The notes under the pieces: generated by a model
Seen by the model: the letters and a program-made list of their open reading frames with translations, nothing else
Told to the model about the DNA's origin: nothing
Database searches by the model: none
Assembly (NCBI GenBank): GCA_947627155.1
Contig: CANQUX010000014.1
Location: forward strand, 1-43,709
Length of the DNA stretch: 43,709 bases
From: an uncultured Alphaproteobacteria bacterium
GTDB lineage: Bacteria > Pseudomonadota > Alphaproteobacteria > CAAHEQ01 > UBA3637
Direction: 5' to 3'
Shown here: positions 2,192 to 43,709 of the stretch, in pieces
Layout: each line of letters starts with the position of its first letter
How positions within the stretch are numbered: position 1 is the first letter of the stretch
Translations under genes and position numbers: made by a program

Positions 2192-5100
2192 ATGTTTTCC
2201 GGATTTTTTATTCAGCGGCCGCGCTTTTCGTTCGTGATTTCCATTGTGATTGTGTTAGCGGGATTGATTTCGCTTTTTAAACTGCCGATTGCTCTCTATC
2301 CGGAAGTAACGCCGCCGCAAATTGCCGTACGGGCAACATATCCCGGCGCGAATGCCGATGTGATTGCCAAAACGGTCGGTATTCCGCTCGAAGATGAAAT
2401 CAACGGCGTGGAAGATATGCTTTATATGGATTCCACCTCCGAAGATTCGAGTTATACGTTAACGGTCACGTTTAAAGCCGGCATTGATCCGGATATTGCC
2501 CAAGTGAAAGTGCAAAACCGCGTGCAACAGGCAATGGCAAAATTGCCCGAAGAAGTCACGCGACAAGGGCTTTCCGTGAAACGACAGTCCTCAAACATTT
2601 TGGCATTCATTGTGTTTTCTTCGCCGAAAGGAACCTATAACGAAAAAGAATTAAGCGATTATATTTATAATAACGTTGAAAGAACAATTGCGCGGGTCAG
2701 CGGTGTCGGAAACGTGAATGTTTACGGCTCAAAACTCAGTATGCGCGTTTGGTTGAATGCCGATAAAATGGCGGCAATGCATATTACGGTTAAAGATATT
2801 CACGCGGCCGTTTCCGGACAAAATTATCAGCCCACGTTGGGCAGTGTGGGTGCATCGCCCACCAATTCCGATACGCCGATGATCTATTCTTTGCAAACCA
2901 AAGGCCGTATGAGTACGCCCGAAGAATTTGAAAACATTATTGTGCGCACGGCGGAGCAGGGCGGCTTAACGCGGTTGAAAGATTTGGCAACCGTTGAAAT
3001 CGGACAGGAATCTTATGCCATTTCCGGCCTTTATAACGGGCAAACGGCCGTAACCATGGCCATTAACCTGTCATCGGGTGCCAATGCGTTGGAAACGTTT
3101 CAAAACATTTCAAGCACCCTCAAAGAATTGTCGCAAACTTTTCCCGAAGACATTACATATGATTTCGGGTATGATGCCACGAAATATATTGATGCCTCGG
3201 TTGAAGAAGTGATTTTCACGCTCTTTTTAACGTTGGCGTTGGTGATTGGTGTGTGCTATTTCTTTTTGCAGGATTTTTATTCGACACTCATTCCGTCGCT
3301 GACGATTCCCGTTTCCATTTTAGGCACATTTTGCGTGATTTTGGCGCTCGGATACAGTATTAACATGTTTACCTTATTTGCCATGCTGTTGGCCATCGGT
3401 TTGGTGGTGGATGATGCCATTGTGGTGGTGGAACGGGTGGTTCACTTAATGCAAAACACGCAAATGACGGCGCGCGAAGCCACTTATCAGGCCATGAAAG
3501 AAATTACGGGCGCCTTGGTGGCAACCTCTTTGGTGTTGTTGGCTATTTTTATTCCTGTCGGCTTTTTGGACGGCATTGTCGGTATGATTTATCAACAATT
3601 TTCCGTTACCATTGCCACGGCTATTTTATTTTCGCTGCTGAACGCCTTAACGTTATCGCCCGCCTTGTGTTCGTTGCTGATTAAGAAAATCAAACCGCGC
3701 AAAAAAGGCTTTTGGGGCAAGGTGAACAATAGTATTGCGAAAAGCATTCACGGATACAGCGTTTCGGTTTCCGTTATTGCCAAAAAACCGCGCGTGATTG
3801 CAACATTGTTTTGTTTGTTGGTTCTGTTGGCCTATGCGTTGTTTTCCGTTACGCAAAGTTCCTTTATTCCCGATGAAGATCAGGGCGTGATTGTTTTAAA
3901 TATGCAATTGCCGGAAGGGGCTTCCAAAAAACGAACACATGCGCTTTTGAAAAAAGTTAATGAAGTGGTGGCATCGGAAAAAAGCGTTGCCGGTATTTCC
4001 GATGTGGTCGGATACAGTTTACTTTCCGGTCGCGGTGAAAACGTTGCCATGTCGTTTATTGTGTTAAAACCGTGGAATGAAAGAAAAGCCGATTCGGAAT
4101 ATTCCACCACGATTTTAAATCGATTGCGCGGCAAAATTTCTTCATTCCCCGAAGCCGAGTTTCAATTGTTTGAAATGCCCGCCATTCCGGGGTTGGGTAT
4201 GGCAAACGGGTTGGATATTCGTTTGGAATCGCGTCATTCCATGGACTATCAACAGTTAGATGCCGCATTGCAAAGCTTTTTAAGCAAGCTTAATCAGCTG
4301 CCGGAAATTGCTTATGCTTATTCCACGTTTAATGCGAAAACACCGAACGTGTTTTTGGATATCAATCGGGAAAAAGCCGAAAGTATGAATGTGCCGATCG
4401 GCAATATTTTCTCAACTTTGGAAAGCTATTTGGGCTCGGCCTATGTGAACGATATCAATTTGGGTACGCAGGTCAATAAAGTGATGTTGCAATCGGCCTG
4501 GCCGTATCGTAAAGATATTGACAGCATCAATAATTTATATGTGATGAATCAAAACGGCGCCATGGTTCCCATGCGCGGATTGGTCGATTTGCATAAAGTG
4601 TTGGCTCCCCGCGTGGTGAATCGGTATAATCAATATCCGTCCGCTTCCGTTACTGCCGTGCAAAAACCGGGCGTCAGTACGGGTGAGGCCATGAAAGCCG
4701 TTGAAAAATTAACGGCACAATTGCCCAAAGGATTCGGTATTGAATGGTCGACCACCAGTTTTCAGGAAAAACAGGCACACGGACAAATCGGTTATCTGCT
4801 TGTTTTGGCTGTTTTGTTCGCTTATCTCTTTTTGGTGGCGCAATATGAAAGTTTTGTGGTGCCTTTGCCCGTGTTGCTGTCCCTAATTGTTGCCGTAAAC
4901 GGCGCTTTAATCGGCTTGTTTTTCTCGGGATTATCTTTAAGTATTTATGCGCAACTCGGACTTATTTTGCTCATCGGACTGGCCAGTAAAAACGCCATTT
5001 TGATTGTGGAATTTGCCAAAGAAGAACGCCAAAAAGGTGCTACGATTACCAATGCGGCATTAAAAGGATTGAAAGAACGGTTCAGAGCCGTTTTAATGAC

Positions 5101-5342: not shown

Positions 5343-7571
5343 TTAAGCCTCATCGGAGCTGACTAATTTATTCCACCAACCCCGTTTTTTCTTTTTGGGT
5401 TCCGTAATCGGTGTTGCCACAGTTTCCAGTGTTTCCGTTACGGTTGATTTAGGTGTTTCCGTTATTGTCTCTTCCTTTTTGGCATTTTCGGCTTCCCGCT
5501 GCATTTTAGCGGCATGACGGCTTTTAAATGACCGATATTTTTTTGGTGGTCTTTTATTAAATTTGTTGTTAGAAGCACCTTCTTCATGTGGTATCGATAC
5601 ATTTGTTTCGGATTGTTCTGCCGATGCCGGAATTTCGGTATAATTTTCCAGTGATTGCTGTTCAACAACCGTAAAATGCTCTTCAGCCGATGTGTCAGGC
5701 GCCGTTTCGGCTGCAACCTCGGATTGCATAAACCGTTCGCGCCGTTGGTCACGCCGTTTTTTCCGCCATTCGTACCGCCGCCGATTTTTACCTCTCCGAT
5801 TACCGAAGAAATTATTATTTTCTTCTTCAAAGTCAGAAGATTCCGTTAATTTTTCATTGTTTGACTCTTCCGCATTTCCTTTGTTGCGTTTGGCATAATC
5901 GTTTTGTTTTTTATCATTTGTTTTGGAATAATGCGCCGTTAAAGACAAATTGACGTATTCGCCGTCTTCCCGAATTCGTTCTAATTTATAATCGGATATT
6001 CTTTCAATGGAATTATCCACCGAAACCGTAACGGAACAAGCATACCGTTTTTCCATATCAACTAAATTTTTGCGTTTGTTATTCAAAACATATGTGGCAA
6101 CTGTCTGCGGTAACGATAAAACAATGTTTGTTTCCCTGTTTTTCAGACAAGCTTCTTCCAAAATATGTAACGCATGCATAGCGCAGGATTCAACCGAGCG
6201 AATCACGCCTTTGCCGGCACAATGCGGACACAAATGATAGCTGCTTTCCAAAAAGCTGGAATGCAGGCGTTGACGAGACATTTCCATCAGCCCGAAACCC
6301 GACATTTTCCCGACTTGTATGCGAGCGCGATCGCGTTTTAACGCTTCTTTTAAATGACGTTCCACGGCCGCATTGTTTTTGGCTTCATCCATATCAATAA
6401 AGTCAATCACGATTAAGCCCGCCAAATCGCGTAACCGTAATTGTCGCGCAAGCTCATCGCACGTTTCCAAATTCGTGCGCAGAGCTGTTTCTTCAATATC
6501 GTGTTCTCTTGTGGCTCGGCCGGAGTTCACATCAACCGCAACCAGTGCTTCCGTTTGATCAATCACCAAATAACCGCCCGATTTTAATTGCACAATGTTG
6601 CTGTGAATGGCCTCTAACTGCGATTCAACCTGATTGACCAAAAAGAGCGGATCTTCTCCTTTATATTGCTTAATCTTTTTGGCTTGCCCCGGCATTAACA
6701 TTTTCATAAAATCTTTAACGGATTTGAAAACACTTTCGCCCTCCACCCAAACTTCATCAATATCCGGCGAAAAAACATCACGCAAAGAGCGTTTAATAAT
6801 GTCACCCTCTTCATGAATCAATTTCGGTGCTAATGATTCAAGCGTGTTTTCCCGAATTTTCATCCACGTTTTAATTAAATAGTCATAATCGCGCTTAATT
6901 TCCGTTTTGGTTTTCCCCTGTCCGGCCGTGCGAATAATCACGCTCATTCCTTGCGGAATGGGCAGTTTATCAACAATGGTTCGCAACGATTTTCTGTCTT
7001 TGATATTCGTAATTTTACGGGAAACGCCGCCGCCTTTGCCGTTGTTGGGCATTAAAACGCTGTATCGTCCGGCCAGTGATAAATAGGTGGTTAAAGCAGC
7101 GCCTTTATTGCCGCGTTCTTCTTTGACAACCTGAACCAACATCACCTGTCCTTGACGAATCACTTCCTGAATTTTGTATTTTTTGTAGAAATACATGCGT
7201 TGACGCGGTGTTTCTTCCGATTCGCCAATCACTTCAACATCTTCGTTTTTATTGGAAACGGTTTCGACTTCCTCTTCTTCCTGTTTGGCGGCAATCATGG
7301 CTTTTAAAGCCTCTCTGTCCGCAACGGGAATTTGATAATAATCGGGATGAATTTCCCCGAAAGCCAAAAAACCGTGTTTGTTTCCGCCGTAATCGACAAA
7401 CGCCGCTTGCAAAGACGGTTCGACACGAATGATTTTGGCTAAATAAATGTTTCCTTTAATTTGTTTTTTGGTGGAGGTATCAACATCTAATTCTTCAACC
7501 CTCCCGTTTTCAACAACGACGACACGCGTTTCTTCGGGATGCGTGGCATCAATAAGCATTTTTTTTGACAT
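5343..7571 (-). CDS. rne: Ribonuclease E (RNase E/G family)
   Basis: This endonuclease (742 residues) starts mRNA decay and processes rRNA and tRNA precursors. Residues about 38-165 form an S1 RNA-binding domain, interrupted by an acidic insert at about 83-122. The DNase I-like catalytic part carries the two metal-binding aspartates, D347 (ALVAVDVNSGR) and D390 (GLIVIDFIDMD). The zinc-link C448-P-H-C451 joins the subunits. The C-terminal third is a low-complexity scaffold with an Arg-rich block (NRRGKNRRRYEWRKKRRDQR). It ends in KKKKRGWWNKL. A C-terminal GWW motif in Caulobacter RNase E is known to bind PNPase, so a degradosome contact is likely here too. The tail is shorter than in many Alphaproteobacteria. 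It is transcribed away from amiC after an unusually long leader (see the entry at 7572-7753). Confidence 0.95.
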   Translation of the reverse strand: MSKKMLIDATHPEETRVVVVENGRVEELDVDTSTKKQIKGNIYLAKIIRVEPSLQAAFVDYGGNKHGFLAFGEIHPDYYQIPVADREALKAMIAAKQEEEEVETVSNKNEDVEVIGESEETPRQRMYFYKKYKIQEVIRQGQVMLVQVVKEERGNKGAALTTYLSLAGRYSVLMPNNGKGGGVSRKITNIKDRKSLRTIVDKLPIPQGMSVIIRTAGQGKTKTEIKRDYDYLIKTWMKIRENTLESLAPKLIHEEGDIIKRSLRDVFSPDIDEVWVEGESVFKSVKDFMKMLMPGQAKKIKQYKGEDPLFLVNQVESQLEAIHSNIVQLKSGGYLVIDQTEALVAVDVNSGRATREHDIEETALRTNLETCDELARQLRLRDLAGLIVIDFIDMDEAKNNAAVERHLKEALKRDRARIQVGKMSGFGLMEMSRQRLHSSFLESSYHLCPHCAGKGVIRSVESCAMHALHILEEACLKNRETNIVLSLPQTVATYVLNNKRKNLVDMEKRYACSVTVSVDNSIERISDYKLERIREDGEYVNLSLTAHYSKTNDKKQNDYAKRNKGNAEESNNEKLTESSDFEEENNNFFGNRRGKNRRRYEWRKKRRDQRRERFMQSEVAAETAPDTSAEEHFTVVEQQSLENYTEIPASAEQSETNVSIPHEEGASNNKFNKRPPKKYRSFKSRHAAKMQREAENAKKEETITETPKSTVTETLETVATPITEPKKKKRGWWNKLVSSDEA

Positions 7572-42006: not shown

Positions 42007-42160
42007 AACGTACGATTTTTGCAACACTTTTTTTTGATTTTTTCAAAAAAAATTTAATTTAAGCGGAATTCATTGATTTTTCGACTGTTTTTTAGTGGTG
42101 ATTTTTTGCCTTTTGAGGGCAAAATTTGCCCCGGAATCCGCGTTGCATTAAAGGTACGTT
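42007..42160. repeat. Pilin-upstream element, copy A (154 bp with imperfect terminal inverted repeats)
   Basis: The element starts with AACGTACGATTTTTGCAAC (42007-42025) and ends with GTTGCATTAAAGGTACGTT (42142-42160). These are inverted repeats at 15 of 19 positions. Its first 50 bp (42007-42056) are identical to copy B, and its last about 54 bp (from 42112) nearly so. The roughly 55 bp between differ. It fills most of the 355-bp gap between the methyltransferase gene and the first pilin gene. The rest of that gap is AT-rich leader and small dyads. No clear target-site duplication is seen. Confidence 0.75.
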
Positions 42161-42171
42161 TAATTTATGCT
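42117..42171 (+). promoter_or_regulatory. Predicted promoter and palindromic site of the first pilin-like gene
   Basis: Palindrome GGGCAA-AAT-TTGCCC (42117-42131) lies 11 bp upstream of TTGCAT (42143-42148). A 17-bp spacer and TATGCT (42166-42171) follow. The same arrangement, with the same 11-bp gap, occurs in copy B, so a shared regulator is plausible. Confidence 0.5.
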
Positions 42172-42177
42172 AATAAA

Positions 42178-42262
42178 TGAGAGAAAGAATCTCTCAAATG
42201 ATGAAAATAAGGCTTTAATGCCTTTAAAATGAACGTTTTTCAGACTCGGGGAGTTTGAAAAA
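42178..42262 (+). promoter_or_regulatory. Structured leader of the first pilin-like gene
   Basis: Three hairpins follow one another: TGAGAGA/TCTCTCA (42178-42196), AAGGC/GCCTT (42209-42224), and a 12-bp stem TTTTTCAGACTC/GAGTTTGAAAAA with one G-T pair around GGG (42236-42262). The ribosome binding site AAAGGA follows at about 42274. The second pilin gene has no such leader. A role in mRNA stability or control is inference. Confidence 0.45.
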
Positions 42263-42285
42263 TAACCTAAATGAAAGGATAAAAA

Positions 42286-42723
42286 ATGAGAAATACAAAC
42301 GAATCAGGCCGTTCCATGGTTGAAATGCTGGGCGTTTTAGCCATTATCGGTGTTTTAAGTATCGGCGGTATTGCCGGCTATTCCATGGCTATGAATCGCT
42401 ATCGCGCCAATGAAGCTTTGGACATGGCCAATAAATATGCCGTTGTTTTGTTTGCCGGAGCGCAAACTTATGCGGCAACACACGGAGAAACAAGCAGTTA
42501 TTCAAAACCGACACTATATGATGCCGGCTTAACGACAGATAGTACAAGCAAGTCTAAAACCCCGGGTGGTTCTACCATAACTGCAAACAGTATTGGTGAG
42601 GACGGTGTTACTTTGGATATTACTTTTCCGACAGATGCCGTTTGCAAAGCTGCAGTCAGTATTTTGGGTGAAACCGGTAATTGTAGCAGTAACAAGATTT
42701 CACATAATTTCAAACAAAGCTAA
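42286..42723 (+). CDS. Prepilin-like protein with N-terminal cleavage/methylation motif (first of two)
   Basis: The 145-residue product has an eight-residue leader ending in Gly8, then RSMVEMLGVLAIIGVLSIGG. This is a type IV prepilin peptidase site with glutamate at mature position +5, followed by the hydrophobic assembly helix. Mature residue +1 is Arg instead of the usual Phe or Met. The rest is a small pilin-like domain (helix to about residue 60, then Thr/Ser-rich strands) with two cysteines near the C-terminus (VCKAAV, GNCSS) that could form the D-loop disulfide. It is shorter than most major pilins, so it may be a pseudopilin or a variable pilin. No pilus assembly genes are in the window. 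It has its own upstream element and a terminator. Confidence 0.82.
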   Translation: MRNTNESGRSMVEMLGVLAIIGVLSIGGIAGYSMAMNRYRANEALDMANKYAVVLFAGAQTYAATHGETSSYSKPTLYDAGLTTDSTSKSKTPGGSTITANSIGEDGVTLDITFPTDAVCKAAVSILGETGNCSSNKISHNFKQS

Positions 42724-42768
42724 CACCTTATTTGCTTAAAAAGCAGTGCTTTTTAAGGCAAAGAACGG

Positions 42769-42817
42769 CGGGCAGGGCGGTTTTTCTTGAGTTTCCGTCT
42801 CTGCCCGTTGTTTTTTT
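42769..42817 (+). terminator. Terminator region of the first pilin-like gene
   Basis: CGGGCAG (42769-42775) pairs with CTGCCCG (42801-42807), extended inward by GGCGG/CCGTC-type pairs. It is followed by TTG and seven T (42811-42817). A separate perfect 10-bp hairpin, CTTAAAAAGC/GCTTTTTAAG with an AGT loop, lies between it and the stop codon (42735-42757). Confidence 0.8.
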
Positions 42818-42933
42818 ATTACAGAATGCATTTTTATAAAAAACAATAAAATCAATATATTATAAAGTTTGAAATACCTCTTAAATAATAAGAGAAATTA
42901 TTCATTAAGTTATTGAAATATCAATAAAATATT

Positions 42934-42972
42934 GTGTTGCAAAAACGTACGATTTTTGCAACACTTTTTTTT
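42934..42972 (+). terminator. Second, very strong terminator-like hairpin at the left edge of copy B
   Basis: GTGTTGCAAAAA (42934-42945) pairs perfectly with TTTTTGCAACAC (42953-42964) around CGTACGA. Eight T follow at 42965-42972. The right arm is the start of copy B; the left arm looks like an inverted element end. Copy A lacks the left arm. Between 42818 and 42933 I see only AT-rich sequence. Confidence 0.7.
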
Positions 42973-43098
42973 GATTTTTTCAAAAAAAATTTATTTGGAG
43001 GTTATTTTAATTCAATATCAATGGGTTATAAAAAGACTGTTTCACAAAAATTTGAGGGCAATTTTGCCCCCGAATCAGCGTTGCATTAAAGGTACGTT
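42944..43098. repeat. Pilin-upstream element, copy B (155 bp with imperfect terminal inverted repeats)
   Basis: The ends are the same 19-mers as in copy A (42944-42962 and 43080-43098). Its first 50 bp are identical to copy A, and 43051-43103 closely match the end of copy A. The centre (42994-43050) is unrelated in sequence but almost equal in length. It directly precedes the second pilin-like gene. Confidence 0.75.
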
Positions 43099-43110
43099 TA
43101 ATTGTATACT
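43056..43110 (+). promoter_or_regulatory. Predicted promoter and palindromic site of the second pilin-like gene
   Basis: Palindrome GGGCAA-TT-TTGCCC (43056-43069) is 11 bp upstream of TTGCAT (43081-43086). An 18-bp spacer and TATACT (43105-43110) follow. The arms match copy A while the centre differs (AAT versus TT). A further TATAAT at 43116-43121 is too close to the ribosome binding site to be preferred. Confidence 0.5.
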
Positions 43111-43137: not shown

Positions 43138-43709
43138 ATGACAATGCAAATTAAAAAACAAGTTCAAAATCAAGCGCAACAAGGCCGGTCAATGATTGAA
43201 ATGCTTGGGGTGCTCGCCATTATTGCTATTTTATCAATCGGCGGGATTGTGGGCTATAAATTAGCCATGAATTATTATCAAGCCGATCAGGTTGCGAATG
43301 AAATTAATTTAATGCGTAACGATTTAAAAGTTAAATATGCTTTGGGGAATGAAGAATTGTTGCTCGGTGACCCTTATGATGATACACCCGAAAATAAAGA
43401 TTACAGCGGACATTTATCAACACAATATGACCGTTATCCCGTTGATTATGATTGCATCCGCAAAGACAAAGCAGAATTTTATAACTGCCGTGAAGCAGAT
43501 GCTTATTATATTAAAGTCGGAAATGTTTCAAAAGGCGTCTGTAAACCGCTTACAACGCTTGTTAATGCTATGGACGGCTTAATGTATATAAAAATCAATA
43601 AACAGCCTTATAAAGAAGATGATTTATGCACGAGTGATGAAGCCAATGAAATTTATGTTGAGTTCGATGCGGAAGATGTAAACGGAAATTACGATTCGAA
43701 TCGTCCGGA
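43138..43709 (+). CDS. Prepilin-like protein with N-terminal cleavage/methylation motif (second, cut by window end)
   Basis: The frame starts at ATG 43138 (AAAGGGAG upstream at 43123-43130) and is still open at the right edge; 190 residues are visible. A 16-residue Gln/Lys-rich leader ends at Gly16, followed by RSMIEMLGVLAIIAILSIGG with glutamate at mature +5 and Arg at +1. It shares the first about 35 mature residues with the first pilin-like protein (GRSMxEMLGVLAII...GGIxGYxxAMNxYxA), but the remainder is unrelated and much longer. The rest is rich in Asp, Tyr and Cys (YPVDYDCIRKDKAEFYNC). Shared signal with a different globular part suggests distinct subunits of one filament or a diversifying family. 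ATG at 43144 is an alternative start. Confidence 0.8.
   Translation, partial: MTMQIKKQVQNQAQQGRSMIEMLGVLAIIAILSIGGIVGYKLAMNYYQADQVANEINLMRNDLKVKYALGNEELLLGDPYDDTPENKDYSGHLSTQYDRYPVDYDCIRKDKAEFYNCREADAYYIKVGNVSKGVCKPLTTLVNAMDGLMYIKINKQPYKEDDLCTSDEANEIYVEFDAEDVNGNYDSNRP

Follow-up and report, generated by a model that had tools for sequence, protein, structure and literature searches.

At the end of the window, by which we mean the whole 43,709-nucleotide stretch analysed from an uncultured alphaproteobacterium, two pilin-like genes follow one another on the forward strand, and each is preceded by a short cassette, of 154 bp in the case of the first gene (cassette A) and 155 bp in that of the second (cassette B). 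A sequence-only reading had previously recognised these as two similar copies with unrelated centres. Our comparison bears this out: cassettes A and B share 98% identity over their first 54 nt and 93% over their last 44 nt, the ends of both form inverted repeats matching at 15 of 19 positions, and the window holds just two occurrences of each terminal 19-mer, where 0.01-0.03 would be expected. The centres agree at only 21 of 56 positions, the level of shuffled sequences in both orientations, which gives no support to the idea that the B centre is a flipped A centre. An Rfam scan of the window returned tRNA as its sole match and none for the cassette.

Table 1. Cassettes, putative promoter elements and genes at the end of the window
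Feature	Position	Strand	Remarks
Cassette A	42007..42160	+	Type A interior, one of ~55 copies in the genome; R orientation (right end adjoins the -10 of the pilin gene)
Cassette A, left terminal repeat	42007..42025	+	AACGTACGATTTTTGCAAC; ATAAAC just outside; putative invertase site
Cassette A, right terminal repeat	42142..42160	+	GTTGCATTAAAGGTACGTT; carries -35-like TTGCAT (42143-42148); its palindrome core falls in the promoter spacer
-10-like TATGCT of cassette A	42166..42171	+	Outside the cassette, 17 bp from TTGCAT; assigned from sequence and the spacing rule (182 copies)
Pilin-like gene, 145 aa	42286..42723	+	Prepilin N-terminus GRSMVEMLGVLAIIG; weak Pfam N_methyl match (E 0.017, below cut-off)
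Cassette B	42944..43098	+	Type B interior; R orientation
Cassette B, left terminal repeat	42944..42962	+	19-mer match
Cassette B, right terminal repeat	43080..43098	+	19-mer match; carries TTGCAT (43081-43086)
-10-like TATACT of cassette B	43105..43110	+	18 bp from TTGCAT (18-bp class); assigned from sequence
Second pilin-like gene	43138..43709	+	Open at the contig end; sequence: GRSMIEMLGVLAIIAILSIGG

Copies of the cassette and the genes behind them

We surveyed the cassette by sequence searches and by reading the stretches around its copies, in draft MAGs of which many contigs end at these repeats. The genome of the window (G000; 1.56 Mb, 32 contigs) has 83 exact matches to the right 20-mer and 59 to the left 19-mer. 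Pairing of the ends, a search that the sequence-only reading had proposed, yielded 86 complete cassettes at the first pass and 89-90 once the flanks had been read, and the one-ended matches that we inspected were mostly contig-end or partial copies. The same family is present in G006, G007 and G009, which belong to the same genus. Had there been just two copies, with similarity running on past their ends, simple gene duplication would have been the natural account; instead there are about 90, and the similarity of their flanks, which often continues beyond the cassette into a few recurrent flank families, does not do so uniformly.

The terminal repeats share the core AAACGTACGTTT. Measured from GTAC to GTAC, nearly all of 182 copies from four genomes (one per species) are 146-150 bp long, with a small class at 155-156 bp; a lone length of 136 bp reflected a mis-assigned end and became 148 bp on reading through. 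Two interiors predominate in G000, type A (154 bp, ~55 copies) and type B (155 bp, ~34 copies), and the window happens to hold one cassette of each. Copies of one type and equal length differ from each other at 14-25 positions on average; certain interiors are unrelated altogether. At the G006 counterpart of the cassette B locus, where the good match is limited to the gene side, the cassette is of type A.

All 86 informative G000 cassettes directly precede an open reading frame. Listing these downstream genes, another suggested check, revealed a prepilin-like N-terminus with the motif GRSMVEMLG in 76 of the 86; the other 10 reading frames, which start 4-94 nt from the cassette, include an ankyrin protein, glycosyltransferases and an arylsulfotransferase. 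The label 'pilin-like' rests on this motif, since the Pfam N_methyl scores of the pilin genes stay below the cut-off.

The position of the cassettes relative to putative promoter elements is regular. Of 182 right ends read outward, 139 have a -10-like hexamer 17 bp beyond TTGCAW and others form a class at 18 bp, by a spacing rule derived from and scored on the same 182 copies. In 18 copies the right end has no such hexamer, and in 13 of these the left end does. This pattern suggests that one cassette end provides the -35 region and the flank the -10, and therefore that the terminal repeat sits within the promoter spacer. The proposal that the element brings both a terminator and a promoter thus holds in part: the cassette appears to carry a partial promoter, whereas the terminator, often found just upstream, belongs to the flank rather than to the element.

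The upstream flanks have features of their own. Flanks 'U2' and 'U3' are recurrent intergenic hairpin repeats, for example CTATCGGCGGGTG...CCGATAGGGG and GGCGGGAAGTGCTATCCCG...GGGATAGCGCGGTG. Flank 'U1', present at ~24 G000 loci (e.g. L043 and L040, minus strand), places a multi-copy sRNA-like gene just 5' of many type B cassettes. This gene has a TTGACA-N17-TATACT promoter, a length of ~200 nt and a terminator that ends ~25 bp before the cassette; its consensus structure of 51 pairs shows double changes at 14 pairs (47 copies; prediction and count both come from one alignment), and its match to Rfam sRNA-Xcc1 reaches 39.8 bits, below the gathering score of 53 bits. Locus L064 (G000 C6:30290-44165) contains a duplicated stretch with cassettes at 3145, 7333 and 11521, each 4188 bp from the next; the cassettes at 3145 and 7333 have a U3-side flank in common, and those at 7333 and 11521 a gene for a 379-aa protein.

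Orientation of the cassettes and the Mpi-family invertases

The decisive locus is that of the 379-aa protein, which has no Pfam match. Its copies in G000 (L064:11524) and G006 (L190:1509) have the same flank order, and both flanks align colinearly (360/401 upstream, 380/399 downstream). The 148-bp segment between them aligns at 140 of 148 positions, and only as the reverse complement. This segment has been inverted in place between the sister species.

Flank similarity flagged 21 G000-G006 pairs, among which this was the one clean inversion; because the remaining 19 pairs have the same orientation in both genomes, flipping may be rare. The pair L091/L165, considered as a second inversion, was rejected by eye, both of its flanks having similar divergent leaders and fitting better when swapped. 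The G006-G007 pair L164/L142 is suggestive of inversion. Among paralogs in G000 and G006, flank families are shared by cassettes of opposite orientation. Before pilin genes the ratio of R to L is 75:1 in G000, 48:3 in G006 and 15:1 in G007; the L orientation thus accounts for 1/76, 3/51 and 1/16 pilin copies, respectively, and for ~5/80 in G001, or about one to six per genome. Such a skew would be expected if most cassettes were OFF, and equally if flipping were rare and orientation inherited with duplication.

Several pairs have a strongly conserved upstream flank but a different pilin gene or interior type downstream of it, and cassettes and pilin genes therefore appear to have been exchanged at fixed loci. 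Conserved upstream flanks with dissimilar downstream pilin genes, between G000 and G006 or G007, are found at L048:7063/L104, L057/L169 and L058/L118. The cassette family has probably spread mainly together with pilin genes, through duplication and recombination.

The pilin expansion extends through the family: we counted 102 matches to the pilin motif in G001, 47 in G008 and 26-31 in G004, G010 and G012. Pilin genes of G001 and G008 follow a diverged homologous cassette, 131 bp from core to core, or 155 bp in a second subtype. The ends of this cassette are GGGACGTAT...TGCAAC and GGGAAAAAAAGGTCCC; the cassette of G004 measures ~130 bp. Most G001 and G008 copies have the R end by the gene flank, so placed that GGGAAAA, adjoining TTACACT, occupies the place of the -35 without any -35-like hexamer. 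A few have the L end at the gene side, which creates TTGCAW-17-TACACT. Read from the match list in rows with no more than one mismatch, the latter form numbers ~5 against ~75 of the former in G001, and 3-5 against ~27 in G008. In nine copies that we read (L231, L300-L304 and L307-L309), the L end adjoins the flank normally found before the gene. Their R end adjoins the normal upstream flank, save in L301, which has a -10-like flank at both ends; since most of the nine were picked for looking flipped, they give no frequency.

These arrangements bear on which orientation might be active. Because TTGCAW is present at both cassette ends in G000, the ON and OFF states are not obvious there. We take the minority L orientation, which sets an A-tract and TTGCAA/T beside the -10, to be the probable strong state, and R, the commoner orientation, to be the probable weak or OFF state; this assignment is most legible in G001 and G008, with their R end devoid of a -35-like hexamer.

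An enzyme that could flip the cassettes is encoded in the same genome. Matches in G000 to NCBIfam NF009949 ('master DNA invertase Mpi family') score 315, 289, 282 and ~272 bits (cut-off 272), and one further small serine recombinase falls just under the cut-off. The Mpi-family genes of G000 are on contigs C2, C5, C13, C15 and C20; those on C13 and C20 lie upstream of a cassette by no more than ~1 kb, and that on C15 lies within ~2 kb of one. Published Mpi-type repeats read ARACGTTCGTN in B. fragilis and GTTCGTTTAA in B. intestinalis (PMC8375218), and the cassette end AAACGTACGTTTAA differs from each by one mismatch. Mpi-family genes also occur in the congeners G002, G003 and G005, which have no match to the cassette, so that the distribution of the enzyme does not follow that of the cassette. 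The sequences are thus compatible with, but not proof of, a pairing of an Mpi-family invertase with the cassette ends. All seven genomes searched also encode phage-integrase-type recombinases, for which we saw no connection with the cassettes. Near one cassette, a 191-aa reading frame (L054:2763-3335, plus strand) encodes a protein without a catalytic domain whose three HTH-like segments are similar to the DNA-binding region of Mpi; weak repeated NF009949 matches in G006 suggest similar proteins there, and we regard the L054 product as a candidate site-binding regulator.

Competing explanations

Taken together, the data make an Mpi-type invertible promoter cassette, or inverton, the likely identity of the 154/155-bp element. 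Paired repeats, a -10 in the flank, an adjacent reading frame, an in-place inversion, the occurrence of both orientations and the NF009949 genes all lend support to this interpretation. An Mpi-family invertase would act on the two cassette ends and flip the segment between them, swapping the -35 and the upstream part of the promoter while the -10 and the gene stayed in place. Since the evidence suggests such end-to-end flipping, the cassettes are probably genetic switches, and the earlier conjecture of independently switched surface genes is plausible.

Some of the same features could belong to a fixed regulatory cassette, whose palindromic ends would be operators of one regulator that loops the DNA at a pilin regulon, one operator lying in the -35/-10 spacer and the other ~144 bp upstream, and whose inversions would be rare accidents of recombination across the inverted repeats. 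The palindrome is indeed centred in the promoter spacer, the end-to-end length is constant within a species, orientation is kept in most orthologous pairs, and a protein with three HTH-like segments similar to the Mpi DNA-binding region is encoded near one cassette. Yet the spacing is ~144-145 bp in G000, 131 or 155 bp in G001 and ~130 bp in G004, with no common helical phase, and these differences between species led us to reject looping with a fixed phase. Resemblance of the cassette end to an Mpi recombination site, in the presence of that invertase family, also argues against fixed operators, as do the nine flipped copies of G001 and G008, which keep the same flank types. We therefore consider a fixed cassette unlikely.

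Correia-type and other bacterial MITEs combine terminal inverted repeats, outward promoter elements and high copy number, traits that the cassette shares along with their size range. A short non-autonomous transposon of this sort, mobilised in trans and bearing an outward -35, would account for terminal repeats that are nearly perfect or longer in some copies (G009 L158) than the 15/19 of the window, and for the appearance of the cassette before genes as unrelated as those for the ankyrin protein, the glycosyltransferases and the arylsulfotransferase. However, the 86 informative G000 copies are all placed as promoters rather than scattered, and the flanks of the element show no consistent target duplication: TA borders both sides in some contexts and is absent in others, in flanks that are A/T-rich. 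Nor did the suggested search for empty sites find any, the arylsulfotransferase orthologs that lack the element having different upstream sequence. For these reasons, and unlike in MITEs, random insertion finds no support here, and the in-place inversion is a further difference; a MITE is very improbable. Of the sequence-only reading, which had left the choice between a MITE-like element and a cassette spreading with pilin genes, what survives is a multi-copy element, bounded by inverted repeats and carrying part of a promoter, before pilin-like genes, and what does not is a randomly inserting MITE.

Duplication has evidently added to the number of copies, and left flank families and leaders do co-occur with interior types, such as U1 with type B. 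As a full account, in which the repeats would be the conserved upstream parts of duplicated pilin genes and have no activity of their own, it is contradicted by the reassortment of interior types and flanks, by cassettes before genes outside the pilin family and by the segment inverted alone between colinear flanks; we give it hardly any credence. Integron attC sites were rejected by eye, as their R''/R' core sites find no counterpart in the cassette ends, and so were CtrA or sigma-54 sites, for which the spacing is wrong.

Relation to known invertible promoters

If the invertible-promoter reading is true, uncultivated small-genome gut Alphaproteobacteria (host: rabbit gut) devote a visible share of the genome to ~90 flippable pilin promoters, Mpi-type phase variation extends past the Bacteroides cases, a recombination site can lie between -35 and -10, and the genomes offer a testable case of a large surface-protein repertoire kept mostly silent. 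We tentatively extend this to genome-scale antigenic variation, a possibility that we consider somewhat less likely than not: if every one of the ~75-100 pilin-like genes in a genome had an Mpi-flipped promoter to itself, with nearly all of them in the low state, few pilins would be displayed per cell, with the co-located sRNA family possibly involved.

A literature search of limited scope found no description of this cassette system. The claim that no element of this form has been described goes too far, nevertheless, as the invertible promoter segments of B. intestinalis, 183-186 bp long and with similar repeats, are on record (PMC8375218). Like the Mpi-controlled capsule promoters of B. fragilis and B. 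intestinalis (PMC8375218, PMC4747536), the cassettes are short, apparently invertible promoters before surface loci, they have an ACGTWCGT-like repeat core, their genome encodes an Mpi-family serine invertase, and many loci fall under one repeat type. They differ in their alphaproteobacterial host, in preceding pilin-like genes rather than capsule loci, in their length of 154/155 bp and in the roughly 90 loci with a single cassette family. Moreover, the repeat here would separate an invertible -35 region from a stationary -10; the B. intestinalis promoters, by contrast, have their transcription start within the repeat.

Large sets of invertible DNA near cell-surface genes are also known among gut-bacterial invertons; 181 are known in Mitsuokella multacida, and repeat-sharing groups of up to 72 are on record (PMC11892184). 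There inversion was seen in reads, while here it is deduced from orthologs and paralogs. Invertible surface promoters and Mpi are thus already known, as are genomes that hold over 100 invertons (PMC11892184); the novelty lies in a host among the Alphaproteobacteria, in one huge pilin-linked family and in the location of the repeat between -35 and -10.
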